Positions 31,063-35,337 of a DNA stretch of 64,000 bases are shown here, in pieces. The stretch is from Segatella copri (GTDB taxonomy: Bacteria > Bacteroidota > Bacteroidia > Bacteroidales > Bacteroidaceae), in assembly GCF_026015625.1 (NCBI RefSeq), contig NZ_JAPDVG010000001.1:1550001-1614000 (forward strand), written 5' to 3'. Position 1 is the stretch's first letter, and each line of letters opens with the position of its first letter. The notes under the pieces are model-generated. The model did not search any database and was not told where the DNA came from. It saw only the letters and a program-made list of their open reading frames with translations. A program made the position numbers and the translations under genes.

Positions 31063-31860
31063 TTATTTTTCTTTAATCTCAATATCTTCCTTCACATGAT
31101 TACGTATCTTGGTAAGGAAGAGTTTCATACGCTTCGCATCCTTGTGGTCGATGATGTCGATGAGCTCAGCAAGCTCCTCTCTGATCTGCGCCACCTGGCC
31201 CGATGTGTATGGGTTGAAGAGGATTTCCTGCAGCAGGTAATCATCTTCGTTGAGCACGCCCTTGGCTATCTGCATGTGGCGCTTGAAGGTGGTGCCCGGA
31301 GCATCCTGGTGCTTCATCACTGCTGCAAAGGCAAAGGTGCTCACGAAAGGAATACTCAGCGAGTAGGCCACCGTCTGGTCGTGCTCATCAAATGTATACT
31401 CATGCAGACTCAACCCCAACTTCTGGTAGAGGTCCTTGAAGAATATCTTGCCCATGTAGTCACCCTCCTTGATGATGACTGCATTCTCCTCTGAAAGCTG
31501 GTTCAGATTGGCAAAGGTCGGGCCGAACATAGGGTGCGTGCTCACGAAGCGGAAACCGCTCTTCTCGTAAAAATCCTGCAGTCCGGTCTTTACCGAAGCT
31601 ATGTCGCTGATAATGCAGTCGTGAGAGAGATGTGGCAACACCTCTTCGAAGGCTGGCAGCGTATATTTTACCGTCACCGCATTGATAACCAGTTCGGGGC
31701 GGAACATCTCTATTTCTTCCATCTTGGTGAAGCGGTAACAGTTGTAGGTGAAGCGCAGTCGCTTGGCATCCTTCTCGTAAACCGCCACCTCGTGGTCGAA
31801 ACTGAGCAGGTCGATGAAGAAACTTCCCATCTTACCTGCTCCCATAATTAATATTCTCAT
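31063..31860 (-). CDS. tyrA: Prephenate dehydrogenase
   Basis: The enzyme oxidatively decarboxylates prephenate towards tyrosine. A Rossmann motif MRILIMGAGKMGSFF opens the 265-residue protein. SDIASVKTGLQDFYEK and VSTHPMFGPTFANL match the family's NAD-binding and substrate regions (the His in STHPMFGP is characteristic). The C-terminal all-helical dimerisation domain follows. No chorismate mutase or ACT domain is attached. It is the last gene of the aromatic operon and begins 12 bp after the stop of the DAHP synthase gene. Confidence 0.9.
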   Translation of the reverse strand: MRILIMGAGKMGSFFIDLLSFDHEVAVYEKDAKRLRFTYNCYRFTKMEEIEMFRPELVINAVTVKYTLPAFEEVLPHLSHDCIISDIASVKTGLQDFYEKSGFRFVSTHPMFGPTFANLNQLSEENAVIIKEGDYMGKIFFKDLYQKLGLSLHEYTFDEHDQTVAYSLSIPFVSTFAFAAVMKHQDAPGTTFKRHMQIAKGVLNEDDYLLQEILFNPYTSGQVAQIREELAELIDIIDHKDAKRMKLFLTKIRNHVKEDIEIKEK

Positions 31861-31872
31861 AGCCAGTATCCT

Positions 31873-32940
31873 TTACTTCTGGTTTAGGATTTCCAACTGC
31901 TGGCGGACACTCTCCTCATGGATGTGCTCGAAAATCTGAGCGGCAAACTCAGGGCTCATGCCGCAGAGGGCTGCCTGGGCTCCACGCTTGTCGAGAATCT
32001 CGTTGTAACGGCTGGTCTGAACGATGGTCATGTTGTGCTCCTTCTTGTAGGTACCAATCTCGCGACAAACGCGCATACGCTTAGCCAGGAGATCCATCAG
32101 CTGGTTGTCGCACTCGTCAATCTGACCGCGCAGCTGGTGCAGACCCTCTGTAGAATAATGCTCATCGCGCACTACGAGGAGGCTGAGGATGTAATCCAGC
32201 ACCTCTGGGGTAACCTGCTGCTTGGCATCGCTCCATGCATCGTCTGGGCTGCAGTGGCTCTCAACGATGAGTCCGTCGAAACCTAAGTCCATTGCCTGCT
32301 GGCAGAGAGGGGCGATGAGGTCGCGTCGGCCGCCGATGTGGCTAGGGTCGCAGATGATTGGCAACTGTGGTATGCGGCGGTGTAACTCAATAGGAATCTG
32401 CCACATAGGGAGGTTGCGGTAAATCTTCTTGTCGAAGCTTGAGAATCCGCGGTGGATGGCACCGAGCTTCTTGATGCCTGCCTGGTTGATGCGCTGCAGG
32501 GCACCGATCCAGAGCTCGAGGTCTGGGTTTACCGGGTTCTTAACGAGCACAGGCACGTCTACGCCCTGAAGACTGTCAGCAAGTGCCTGCATGGCGAATG
32601 GGTTGGCAGAAGTACGTGCGCCGACCCAGAGAATGTCGATTCCATATTTCAGTGCGAGCTCTACATGCTCTGGGGTAGCCACCTCAGTAGCTGTCAGCAT
32701 GCCTGTTTCTTCCTTCACCTGCTTCATCCAAGGCAAGGCTGTTTCACCGTTACCCTCGAAGCCTCCCGGTTTGGTGCGTGGCTTCCACACACCTGCGCGG
32801 AACATGTGGCAACCTTTGGCAGCCAACTGCTTAGCGGTAGTCATAACCTGCTCTTCTGTCTCTGCCGAGCAAGGGCCGGCAATGACGCAAGGGCGTTCCT
32901 GATCACTAGGAAAATTCAATGGTTCTAATTCTAATTCCAT
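31873..32940 (-). CDS. Bifunctional DAHP synthase/chorismate mutase
   Basis: The first 255 residues are a class I-beta DAHP synthase: VIAGPCSAETEEQV, MFRAGVWKPRTKPGGFEGNG, LWVGARTSANPFAMQ and PIICDPSHIGGRRDLI. The last 95 residues are a chorismate mutase helix bundle (LHQLRGQIDECDNQLMDLLAKRMRVCREIGTYKKEHN, with the Arg and Lys of the active site). The enzyme thus covers the first step of the shikimate pathway and the branch point to prephenate. The order is DAHP synthase then mutase, the arrangement known in Bacteroidota. It lies 27 bp after the aminotransferase gene. Confidence 0.93.
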   Translation of the reverse strand: MELELEPLNFPSDQERPCVIAGPCSAETEEQVMTTAKQLAAKGCHMFRAGVWKPRTKPGGFEGNGETALPWMKQVKEETGMLTATEVATPEHVELALKYGIDILWVGARTSANPFAMQALADSLQGVDVPVLVKNPVNPDLELWIGALQRINQAGIKKLGAIHRGFSSFDKKIYRNLPMWQIPIELHRRIPQLPIICDPSHIGGRRDLIAPLCQQAMDLGFDGLIVESHCSPDDAWSDAKQQVTPEVLDYILSLLVVRDEHYSTEGLHQLRGQIDECDNQLMDLLAKRMRVCREIGTYKKEHNMTIVQTSRYNEILDKRGAQAALCGMSPEFAAQIFEHIHEESVRQQLEILNQK

Positions 32941-32967: not shown

Positions 32968-34137
32968 TTACTTTTCAAAAACCTTCTTGATTCGCTCCAG
33001 GGCCTCTTTCATCTTCTCATCCTTGGCACAGAGGCTGATACGGATGTAACGCTTGCCGTTGGTTCCGAAGATGAAGCCTGGGGTGAGGAAGACGCGAGCC
33101 TCATGCAGAATCTTCTCTGTCAGGTCTTCTACATCAGCATATTTCTCAGGTATCTTGCCCCAAAGGAACATGCCTACCTGGTTAGGGTCAAACTGGCAGT
33201 CGAGCACCTTCATGATCTCCTCAGCAATGTCGCGGCGGCGGCGGTAGTTCTGGATGTTGTTCTCGCGGTGCCATTCATCCGTGTTGTTCAGCATCGCTTC
33301 GGCAGCTGCCAGCTGTATGCCTCGGAAACTTCCGTTGTCGATGTTACTCTTCACCTTCAGAATCCATGAGATGAAAGTCTTGTTGCTCGAAATCATCGCC
33401 ACACGCCAGCCTGGCATGTTGTGGCTCTTGCTCAGAGAATTGAACTCGATGCAGCAGTCCTTAGCTCCCGGCACCTGCATGATGCTCATTGGGTGCTCGT
33501 TGAGGATGAGCGAATATGGGTTGTCGTTCACCACCACGATGTTGTGCTTCTGGGCGAATGCCACCAGCTTTTCGTAGGTTTCGCGCTTCGCCACACCGCC
33601 TGTCGGCATGTTAGGATAGTTGGTCCACATCAGTTTTACGTGGCTCAGGTCCATCTTCTCCAGGGCGTCGAAATCGGGCTGCCATCCGTTATCCTCTCTC
33701 AGATCGTAGTAGGTAATCTTGGTACCCAGAATCTTGTTGATGGCGGTGTAGGTAGGGTATCCCGGGTTCGGGATGAGCACCTCGTCGCCAGGGTTGCAGA
33801 AGGCGAGCGTTACGTGCAGGATGCCTTCCTTGCTACCTATGAGGGGCTGGATTTCTGTAGCCCAGTCGAGGTCTACATCATACCAGCGCTTATAGAAACC
33901 AGCCATTGCTTTGCGCAACTCTGGTATGCCCACCGTAGGCTGATATCCGTGTGCGTTGGGATTGTTGGCTACCTCGCAGAGCTTGTCAATGGTCTGCTTA
34001 GAAGGCGGCATGTCTGGACTTCCGATGGCCAGACTGATGATGTCTTTGCCCTCGGCATTAAGCTTAGCCACTTCCTTCAGTTTTCGGCTGAAGTAGTATT
34101 CCTGTATTTCCGTTACTCTATTGGCTGGTTGTATCAT
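32968..34137 (-). CDS. Class I/II pyridoxal-phosphate aminotransferase, probably aromatic
   Basis: The 389-residue enzyme has the fold-type I pattern: LAIGSPDMPPS, the PLP contact in WTNYPNMPTGG, VVNDNPYSLIL, the Schiff-base Lys in FNSLSKSHNMPGWRVAM, and the C-terminal Arg in RYIRISLC. Its position between pheA and the DAHP synthase/mutase gene suggests it makes phenylalanine and tyrosine from their keto acids, or transaminates prephenate. The sequence alone cannot separate these, and aspartate and diaminopimelate aminotransferases look similar. Confidence 0.85.
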   Translation of the reverse strand: MIQPANRVTEIQEYYFSRKLKEVAKLNAEGKDIISLAIGSPDMPPSKQTIDKLCEVANNPNAHGYQPTVGIPELRKAMAGFYKRWYDVDLDWATEIQPLIGSKEGILHVTLAFCNPGDEVLIPNPGYPTYTAINKILGTKITYYDLREDNGWQPDFDALEKMDLSHVKLMWTNYPNMPTGGVAKRETYEKLVAFAQKHNIVVVNDNPYSLILNEHPMSIMQVPGAKDCCIEFNSLSKSHNMPGWRVAMISSNKTFISWILKVKSNIDNGSFRGIQLAAAEAMLNNTDEWHRENNIQNYRRRRDIAEEIMKVLDCQFDPNQVGMFLWGKIPEKYADVEDLTEKILHEARVFLTPGFIFGTNGKRYIRISLCAKDEKMKEALERIKKVFEK

Positions 34138-34173: not shown

Positions 34174-35007
34174 CTATTCCTTCTCCTCATATTCTCCCAA
34201 CACCTTTATTTTCTTCACGAGCGGCGTAATGGCGTCGATGCTCTGGCGGTATCGGGTCAGGTTGTCGAAGGTGAGGTCTACGTAGAAGAGGTATTCCCAC
34301 TCATGTCCGATGTTTGGCAGCGACTGAATCTTGGTGAGATTGATGTCGTAGAAACTCAGGATGGTGAGCACCTTGGAGAGCGATCCCTTATCGTGAGCCA
34401 GACTGAAGACGATGCTCGCCTTGTTGGCCTTTTCGATGGGACGGAGCAGGGCTGCCTTCTGGGGATTGCAGACCACGAGAAACCGGGTGTAGTTGTGCGG
34501 ATTGTCGTGGATGTCTTCCTGCAGCACCTTCATGCCGTACATGTGGGCAGCGTAAGAAGAGCAGATGGCTGCCCATCCCCTTACCTTGTGCTGGGCGATG
34601 TAGGCTGCCGAGCCTGCGGTATCTTCTGCCTCCACCGCCTTGAGGTCGGGATGGTTGGCTAGGAACTTGCCGCACTGCATGAGGGCTACCGGATGGGAGT
34701 GAACCTCCTGCAGGGTGCTCCAGTCGTCTTCTGGCAGACAGCAGATGCTGTGCTCTATATGGAGCTTGTGTTCGCCTACCACGGTGGTTCCGCTCTGCCG
34801 GAGCAGTTCGTAATTGTGGAGCAGGCTGCCCGCAATGGTGTTTTCAATGGCGCAGATGCCTACTACAGTAGGGTCGCGCTTGATGTTTTCGAACACCTCT
34901 TCGAAGGTAGCACAACAGATGATTTCAATCTGTTCGCCCTCGAAATACTGGTGGGCGGTAATGTCGTGGAAAGATCCCAGCTCTCCTTGAATTGCTATTC
35001 TCTTCAT
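34174..35007 (-). CDS. pheA: Prephenate dehydratase
   Basis: PheA converts prephenate to phenylpyruvate. The catalytic domain runs from MKRIAIQGELGSFHDITA through CAIENTIAGSLLHNYELL and AEDTAGSAAYIA to HNYTRFLVV. The C-terminal ACT domain (about 195-275) has SIVFSLAHDKGSLSKVL and IQSLPNIGHEWEYLFYVD, the Phe-binding GALV/ESRP-like region in variant form. I chose the start at 35007. The open frame continues 15 codons upstream into the terminator hairpin. It is the first gene of the aromatic operon and sits directly behind the leader peptide and terminator. Confidence 0.92.
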   Translation of the reverse strand: MKRIAIQGELGSFHDITAHQYFEGEQIEIICCATFEEVFENIKRDPTVVGICAIENTIAGSLLHNYELLRQSGTTVVGEHKLHIEHSICCLPEDDWSTLQEVHSHPVALMQCGKFLANHPDLKAVEAEDTAGSAAYIAQHKVRGWAAICSSYAAHMYGMKVLQEDIHDNPHNYTRFLVVCNPQKAALLRPIEKANKASIVFSLAHDKGSLSKVLTILSFYDINLTKIQSLPNIGHEWEYLFYVDLTFDNLTRYRQSIDAITPLVKKIKVLGEYEEKE

Positions 35008-35033: not shown

Positions 35034-35070
35034 GAAAAACGGTCCTACTCAATAAGAGCGGGACCGTTTC
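35034..35070 (-). terminator. Attenuator terminator in front of pheA
   Basis: On the minus strand AAACGGTCC...GGACCGTTT forms a 9-bp stem (arms 35061-35069 and 35037-35045) with an inner CTC/GAG pair, followed by TTTTT. It lies between the leader peptide stop and the pheA start, the position expected for a transcription attenuator. Confidence 0.8.
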
Positions 35071-35105
35071 GATGATTTCAAGAATCTAATATCCTAAGTT
35101 GAAAT

Positions 35106-35183
35106 TTACACGCAACTTCCCGCTTTACAATTATTTGCAAAGTAAAAGTAATAGCTAAAAAAGAATGCGTTAAACTTCTTCAT
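35106..35183 (-). CDS. Phe/Tyr-rich leader peptide of the aromatic operon
   Basis: A 25-codon frame begins ATG-AAG-AAG. Residues 4-15 read FNAFFFSYYFYF, nine aromatics of twelve. In total there are six Phe and three Tyr codons. The frame ends 36 bases before the terminator hairpin and about 100 bases before pheA. The transcript starts near 35300, so the frame is inside the leader RNA. Ribosome stalling at Phe or Tyr codons when charged tRNA is scarce would be expected to prevent the terminator from forming. This is inferred from position and composition and matches the logic of the enteric pheA leader; the peptide itself is not homologous. No strong Shine-Dalgarno is seen, as usual here. Confidence 0.8.
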   Translation of the reverse strand: MKKFNAFFFSYYFYFANNCKAGSCV

Positions 35184-35305
35184 TGTCTTTACATTTTATA
35201 TGTTACTCACTTTTGTTCTTTCCGAGCCCGTTTCTCCTTTATTATATAAGGAGCAGGTAGTGCTCAGATTTCGAGTCTCGACTTGCAAAAATCTCAACTC
35301 GACTG

Positions 35306-35337
35306 CAAAAGTAACATTTTTCTTTGATATTGCCAAA
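35306..35337 (-). promoter_or_regulatory. Promoter of the aromatic operon, TTTG-N20-TACTTTTG
   Basis: On the minus strand TTTG (35334-35337) and TACTTTTG (35306-35313) are exactly 20 bp apart. The implied leader is about 290 bases and also holds a CTCCTTTAT/AAAGGAG-type hairpin (about 35234-35253) upstream of the leader peptide. Confidence 0.75.

Follow-up and report, generated by a model that had tools for sequence, protein, structure and literature searches.

In enteric bacteria, control of pheA through an attenuating Phe leader is textbook knowledge, and the pheL layout, represented in Rfam by Phe_leader (RF01859), consists of a Phe-rich leader, mutually exclusive hairpins and a terminator before pheA. 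Single leaders with codons for more than one amino acid are also familiar, as in the E. coli pheST leader (pheM) and the multivalent ilv and thr leaders, which serve other genes than those considered here; none of them is known to interleave Phe and Tyr codons ahead of an operon shared by the two amino acids. Amino-acid control in the Bacteroidota, a dominant gut phylum, has to our knowledge been little studied. We found no published account of a Phe/Tyr leader in Bacteroidia; older comparative surveys may mention one. Vitreschak et al. 2004, and Lopatovskaya et al. 2010 on attenuation in bacteria, may include candidate attenuators of Bacteroidetes, so that a phe leader may already have been predicted computationally in that phylum.

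The Bacteroid-trp RNA (RF01692) is a cis-regulatory element of Bacteroidetes (Weinberg et al. 2010, PMC2864571), from the same phylum as the element described here but associated with different genes; its name suggests a link to trp. In Flavobacterium psychrophilum and other Flavobacteriaceae a 5’ element before pheA has been reported, with no Rfam match and unassigned, in a study that also finds strong indications that amino-acid operons of F. psychrophilum are preceded by leader-peptide attenuators (PMC9723704); its section on the element includes neither a leader sequence nor codon content or structure, and does not follow the element outside Flavobacteriaceae. The F. psychrophilum element is probably of the same family as the one reported here. 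Short frames reminiscent of leader peptides have been noted in B. thetaiotaomicron (PMC7366714).

The subject of this work is the DNA upstream of pheA in Segatella copri, within a stretch of 64,000 nucleotides hereafter called the window. Judged from comparison of sequences, it very probably encodes a ribosome-mediated transcription attenuator that would sense charged tRNA-Phe and tRNA-Tyr on behalf of pheA–aminotransferase–DAHP synthase/mutase–tyrA. Enteric pheL differs from this element in RNA sequence and promoter type; the element has alternating Phe and Tyr codons and would control an aminotransferase, a DAHP synthase/mutase and tyrA in addition to pheA.

Leader, operon and promoter in the window

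All features of the locus lie on the minus strand. The genes are pheA, encoding prephenate dehydratase (34174..35007, ATG at 35007; PF00800, E 5.6e-53), a class I/II aminotransferase gene (32968..34137; PF00155, E 2.2e-61), a gene for DAHP synthase fused to chorismate mutase type II (31873..32940; PF00793 and PF01817) and tyrA, encoding prephenate dehydrogenase (31063..31860; PF02153, E 1.4e-12). An earlier note took these four to form an operon; their order is identical in 75 of 75 relative loci with more than 3.3 kb of downstream sequence. Between the promoter and pheA lies a predicted leader frame of 25 codons, MKKFNAFFFSYYFYFANNCKAGSCV, with an ATG start, a TAA stop and a conserved aromatic core (35106..35183), which ends 98 nt from pheA and is followed by an intrinsic terminator. 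Its six Phe and three Tyr all fall within codons 4–15, exactly as had been read before, making it a short frame rich in codons for the amino acids that the operon produces. The leader's value of eight Phe or Tyr in ten residues is reached by one of the 1026 ATG frames of 10–50 codons in the window, and by one of 24915 frames in 30 random 64-kb sequences of intergenic dinucleotide composition.

A promoter, TTTG-N20-TACTTTTG, was read from the sequence at 35306..35337, upstream of the leader and where the earlier note had placed it, and is assigned to the Bacteroidota -33/-7 type. For comparison, a PheA search of genome contigs gave 304 loci, of which the best 80 carry the titles of Prevotella, Segatella and kin (one just ‘bacterium’). 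Among 80 leaders, from 79 of these best 80 loci together with the window, the promoter motif TANNTTTG stands 5’ of the leader in 77, with TTG or TTTG 17–23 nt before it in 72; the corresponding frequencies per locus in shuffled controls were 7.3% and 0.6%. The stretch between promoter and leader (window 35184-35300) is longer in the window and L003 than in L001 and L002, and may contain extra hairpins.

The terminator hairpin with its U run (35035..35069; -19.4 kcal/mol) is formed by the arms AAACGGTCC and GGACCGTTT, which make nine pairs, one mismatch and then four inner pairs, and 8 of its 13 pairs are changed on both sides among relatives. The earlier note had described a 9-bp stem with five T. 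The nine-pair hairpin is present, but if AAA/TTT is counted in the stem just two of the five T remain after it; a 7-bp outer stem leaves four or five. A simple terminator scan gave no match at this hairpin, unlike folding and a custom script, both of which detected it. The promoter motif, leader frame and terminator hairpin that the earlier note described are all present in the sequence.

Alternative RNA helices and their compensatory changes

All four regions that are usual in a ribosome-mediated attenuator can be recognised in the RNA. Region 1 (CUUUGCAA, 35135..35142) begins at base 3 of codon 14, ends at base 1 of codon 17 and pairs with region 2 (UUGUAAAGCGGGA, codons 18–22, 35118..35130), with 99.3% of alignment cells paired. 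Region 2 can instead partner region 3 (UCCCGCU, 35057..35063), its complement within the 5’ arm of the terminator, and region 3 pairs with region 4 when the terminator forms. Adjoining region 2, a small hairpin AAGUUG...CAACUU (35096..35118; 96.0% of cells paired) lies over the leader stop, and three of its five pairs are changed on both sides (for example in L021 and L027).

Pairing was assessed in alignment A2, which holds 70 of 81 sequences (the best 80 of 304 loci and the window). The near copies L005, L046 and L053 were omitted, as were eight loci in which the stop or region 2 differs or anchoring failed; six of these (L025, L043, L047, L057, L059 and L069) still have 9–11 exact 2:3 pairs, and the other two (L075 and L078) carry a matched GUGAAGUGG/CCCACUUCAC change, CG-to-UA, in the 2:3 helix. 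Given no structure, RNAalifold recovered the 1:2 helix, between codons 14–17 and codons 18–21, and the 3:4 helix from the 70 sequences. Column pair 23-28 of the 1:2 helix (AU 45, GC 18, GU 3, UA 1 and unpaired 3 of 70) covaries even though it joins a first codon base to a wobble base. All 79 anchored sequences have, within the terminator's 5’ arm, an exact complement of 6–13 nt to region 2 (consensus GUGAAGCGGGA); the 2:3 helix in the window, of 7 exact pairs, is shorter than in most relatives.

The antiterminator form, comprising the 2:3 helix and the small hairpin, has 93.1% of cells paired in A2 against 33–48% when slid by 1–3 columns, with 16 double-change cells against 4.4 in shuffles. 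For the terminator form, 93.5% of cells are paired and 121 double-change cells compare with 36.9 in shuffles. Two of the ten summary measures for A2 are not clearly above shuffles: the antiterminator form has 13 further pair types where shuffles have 11.4 (55 of 500 shuffles reach the value), and the terminator form has 9 pairs with a double change where shuffles have 7.6 (31 of 500). The predicted pause, antiterminator and terminator helices are mutually exclusive and each shows compensatory changes, so that the alternative fold which the earlier note had proposed to look for was found.

Folding of the window RNA with region 1 hidden and the 3’ end placed after region 3 gave the antiterminator as the best fold (-19.9 kcal/mol), and with only the part past the leader stop free the terminator formed. 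In the full-length RNA the terminator is more stable than the antiterminator by about 9 kcal/mol, and any switching must therefore be kinetic. The placement of the parts follows the attenuator layout: an intrinsic terminator lies between the leader and the first gene, a ribosome stalled at the control codons would lie over region 1, and the leader stop is just behind region 2, so that a ribosome of usual footprint finishing there would cover region 2.

Conservation, distribution and codon content

Every one of the 80 loci of Prevotella kin, which are the best 80 of 304, has an aromatic leader before pheA; the upstream sequence in the leader search was only 207 nt for L037 and 232 nt for L066. 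It lies within 400 nt of pheA in 79 of these best 80 loci, with that of L075 at -461. By PheA, the closest named relatives in this set include strains of Segatella copri. The nearest genome compared, G001, has 52% of the window's words in common and an identical leader peptide. In 80 leaders (79 of the best 80 of 304 loci and the window) the core ends in Y-F-Y-F, with Tyr, Phe, Tyr and Phe at the four positions in 79, 78, 80 and 80 leaders respectively, and Ala follows the core in 76.

Beyond this group, a protein-word search found pheA in only 61 of 149 genomes of the order, and the phylum was for that reason searched by PF00800 instead. G001 was not counted among the 61 and G007 and G048, whose matches lacked the N-terminus, were left out, giving 58 further same-order loci, of which 50 have a leader by a 450-nt rule; L292 has one at -499, and L262, with 15 nt upstream, was not readable. 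Loci from other orders of Bacteroidia have a leader in 29 of 33 cases, and G161, the 34th same-class genome of other orders, has none. Of the readable further Bacteroidia loci, 80 of 90 thus carry a leader and 10 of 90 do not, which together with the Prevotella kin answers the question raised by the earlier note of whether the Phe/Tyr frame is kept in relatives. Among 104 genomes with pheA from other classes of the phylum, 36 loci were read and no leader was found by a laxer rule within 450 nt upstream, nor in a wider reading of 1400 nt for 29 loci and 700 nt for 7. Two other amino acids were touched on: short His-rich frames (for example MNTNTHHHHHLVLRHIG) occur near hisG in six of eight Bacteroidia genomes (L332-L336 and L338), which suggests candidate His attenuators too, and a crude rule found no Thr/Ile leaders near homoserine dehydrogenase in 10 loci.

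In the wider sample a terminator was found by a strict rule behind 84 of 91 leader units, and four of the seven strict misses (L301, L302, L310 and L331) show by eye a more A/T-rich hairpin with a T run. The complement to the terminator arm has a mean length of 6.9 nt, compared with 4.2 for shuffled sequences, with 59 of 84 units beating 95% of their shuffles for the 2:3 complement. In 10 of 91 loci, all from other species (L242, L245, L248, L279, L280, L286, L287, L295, L296 and L311), pheA is preceded by two consecutive aromatic leaders that each have a terminator of their own; the window has a single unit. In L242, L245, L248, L280 and L296 the 2:3 complement of both units beats 95% of shuffles, and the units of L242, L245 and L248 differ in sequence, being of CGGGA and GGUGGGA types. 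A Trp codon occurs in or beside the aromatic run of L260, L267, L279, L280, L289, L290, L293 and L294.

The 36 genomes of the nearest genus were searched with a covariance model, under stricter filters and with E below 1e-8 taken as strong. One strong element each was found in 28 genomes, other matches being weak (E above 1e-4), and in 27 of the 28 pheA lies within about 60 nt of it. All eight genomes without a strong element, some of them incomplete, lack pheA; G316 gave a weak match only (0.0026). The exception among the 28, G335, has an element and no PheA match. There, a leader MLNYVYASFYYFYLYFTNTCEAEVCVP, in which one core Phe reads Leu, and a terminator precede an aminotransferase gene and the start of a DAHP synthase gene (L231:1330-1760, minus strand). 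From its sequence G335 has apparently lost all but the start of pheA yet kept leader and terminator, an arrangement that fits a device serving the whole operon. Ten places with weaker matches were read, of which eight have no leader by the rule, G019 has a leader before tyrA and G014 has two leaders. The two in G014 (L357:1012-1203, minus strand) are Tyr-rich, MTNHSRTYYYYYFGKWPCGKTMV and MNDNIHTYRFFYYYYYVYYE, and stand before an aminotransferase gene; no PheA was found in this genome by the word search.

The earlier note had proposed a mixed Phe and Tyr sensor. The same attenuator sensing Phe only, with Tyr codons that are incidental or forced by RNA pairing, is very unlikely given the way in which Tyr codons are kept and distributed. 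At codon -1, TAC is invariant in 80 of 80 leaders (79 of the best 80 of 304 loci and the window); RNA pairing could fix it there, and both codons -1 and 0 (TAC TTT) are the less telling for lying within the region 1 helix, since their strict conservation may come from pairing alone. Tyr at codon -3, before the last Phe, lies outside region 1 and is nevertheless present in 79 of the same 80 leaders with a varied third base (TAT 51, TAC 28), which argues for selection on codon meaning. Enteric pheL leaders are Phe-only. Of the four leaders at lone pheA genes, three (L249, L254 and L283) are Phe-only and the fourth, L275, has one Tyr at codon 2, with no leader at three further lone-pheA loci. Against this, all 75 leaders of loci with other aromatic genes, counted anywhere in the retrieved sequence within about 5 kb of pheA and on either strand, contain Tyr; nine such loci have no leader by the rule. 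The contrast (Fisher 5e-5, kinship uncorrected) rests on four lone-pheA loci, which lie in four families. L249 was scored on its second, terminator-linked frame; its upstream frame has one Tyr and no terminator, and counting both frames leaves two of four loci Phe-only.

A search for tyrA and DAHP synthase in the seven genomes with a lone pheA showed that in six of them the separated tyrA-containing genes have a leader of their own, holding Tyr and Phe: MNNTFGYYAFYYYFFYNN in G019, MIKNISVFAYFYYYFYFSKK in G029, MKNLMSTFAYFYYYFYFNIK in G143, the pair MMTTYTFSYFYYWFRTP and MVNFEFYYGFYYYLD in G100, MAPVHTYYAWSFFFFYFQNKRGHAV in G039 and MATQLFVYSYYFYFSWTS in G109. These split-off leaders are located upstream of tyrA, aminotransferase or DAHP synthase genes (L360, L362, L363, L373, L374 and L375). 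In G244, the seventh, no leader was found before the separated tyrA genes. Tyr-containing leaders at separated tyrA genes and mainly Phe codons at lone pheA indicate that Tyr codons go with the tyrA genes, and the split genomes in this way support the mixed sensor.

Proposed mechanism and significance

In the proposed mechanism, RNA polymerase would start at about 35300 and a ribosome would translate the leader. A shortage of Phe or Tyr would stall the ribosome in the alternating Tyr/Phe codons 11–15, where it would cover region 1, leaving region 2 to pair with region 3; the terminator would be blocked and the four genes transcribed. With Phe and Tyr plentiful, the ribosome at the stop would cover region 2, or would depart and allow the 1:2 helix to re-form. 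Region 2 being unavailable, region 3 would pair with region 4 and transcription would end before pheA. The start site, the stalling, the switching and the amount of control are what we infer from sequence. Phe/Tyr attenuation, as first read in the earlier note, gains support from the conserved frame and from a predicted antiterminator with compensatory changes.

Leader peptides can have other roles, and a trans-acting one has been reported for peTrpL of Sinorhizobium (PMC7298713). It is highly improbable that the leader peptide described here acts in trans, or that it aids re-initiation at pheA while the terminator plays an accessory part. At the peptide level CEAGSCV, at the C-terminus, shows good conservation, as such a role would lead one to expect, but the same stretch is region 2 and the small hairpin in the RNA, and in L043, L047, L057, L059, L069, L075 and L078 the frame ends early while the 2:3 complement is kept. 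The 98 nt from leader stop to pheA is also far for simple re-initiation. It is scarcely credible that sensing lies outside the short frame, in a ligand-binding riboswitch, a T-box or an attenuator that depends on a protein: the leader region folds unusually well (z = -4.49), but no Rfam family reached its gathering score in the whole 64-kb window, T-box and riboswitch aptamers included, the four matches to the leader at E up to 10 are weak and far below gathering, the sole riboswitch among them is SAM_alpha (E 7.3) on the opposite strand, and what is conserved is an aromatic-codon frame and pairing, region 2 itself being codons 18–22. The described leader families fared no better in the same scan, in which Phe_leader was below gathering in the window and absent from the matches to the leader at E up to 10, and Bacteroid-trp was not matched to the element at gathering score.

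The principle of attenuation is textbook; the Bacteroidia Phe/Tyr element is, on comparison of sequences, well supported as an instance of it. There is a good likelihood that the locus belongs to a family of Phe/Tyr attenuators that spans the Bacteroidia and is probably ancestral, that has had its codons retuned to the genes that follow (mixed, Phe-only or separate Tyr-containing), and that has survived loss of pheA and been doubled in some lineages. Ribosome-mediated attenuation for Phe and Tyr appears to be in use across much of a class, through an element without an Rfam match. The split operons, the genome that lost pheA and the tandem copies are natural experiments for codon specificity and for how the switch gains in range, and in gut commensals the element could be put to use as a part that responds to amino acids.
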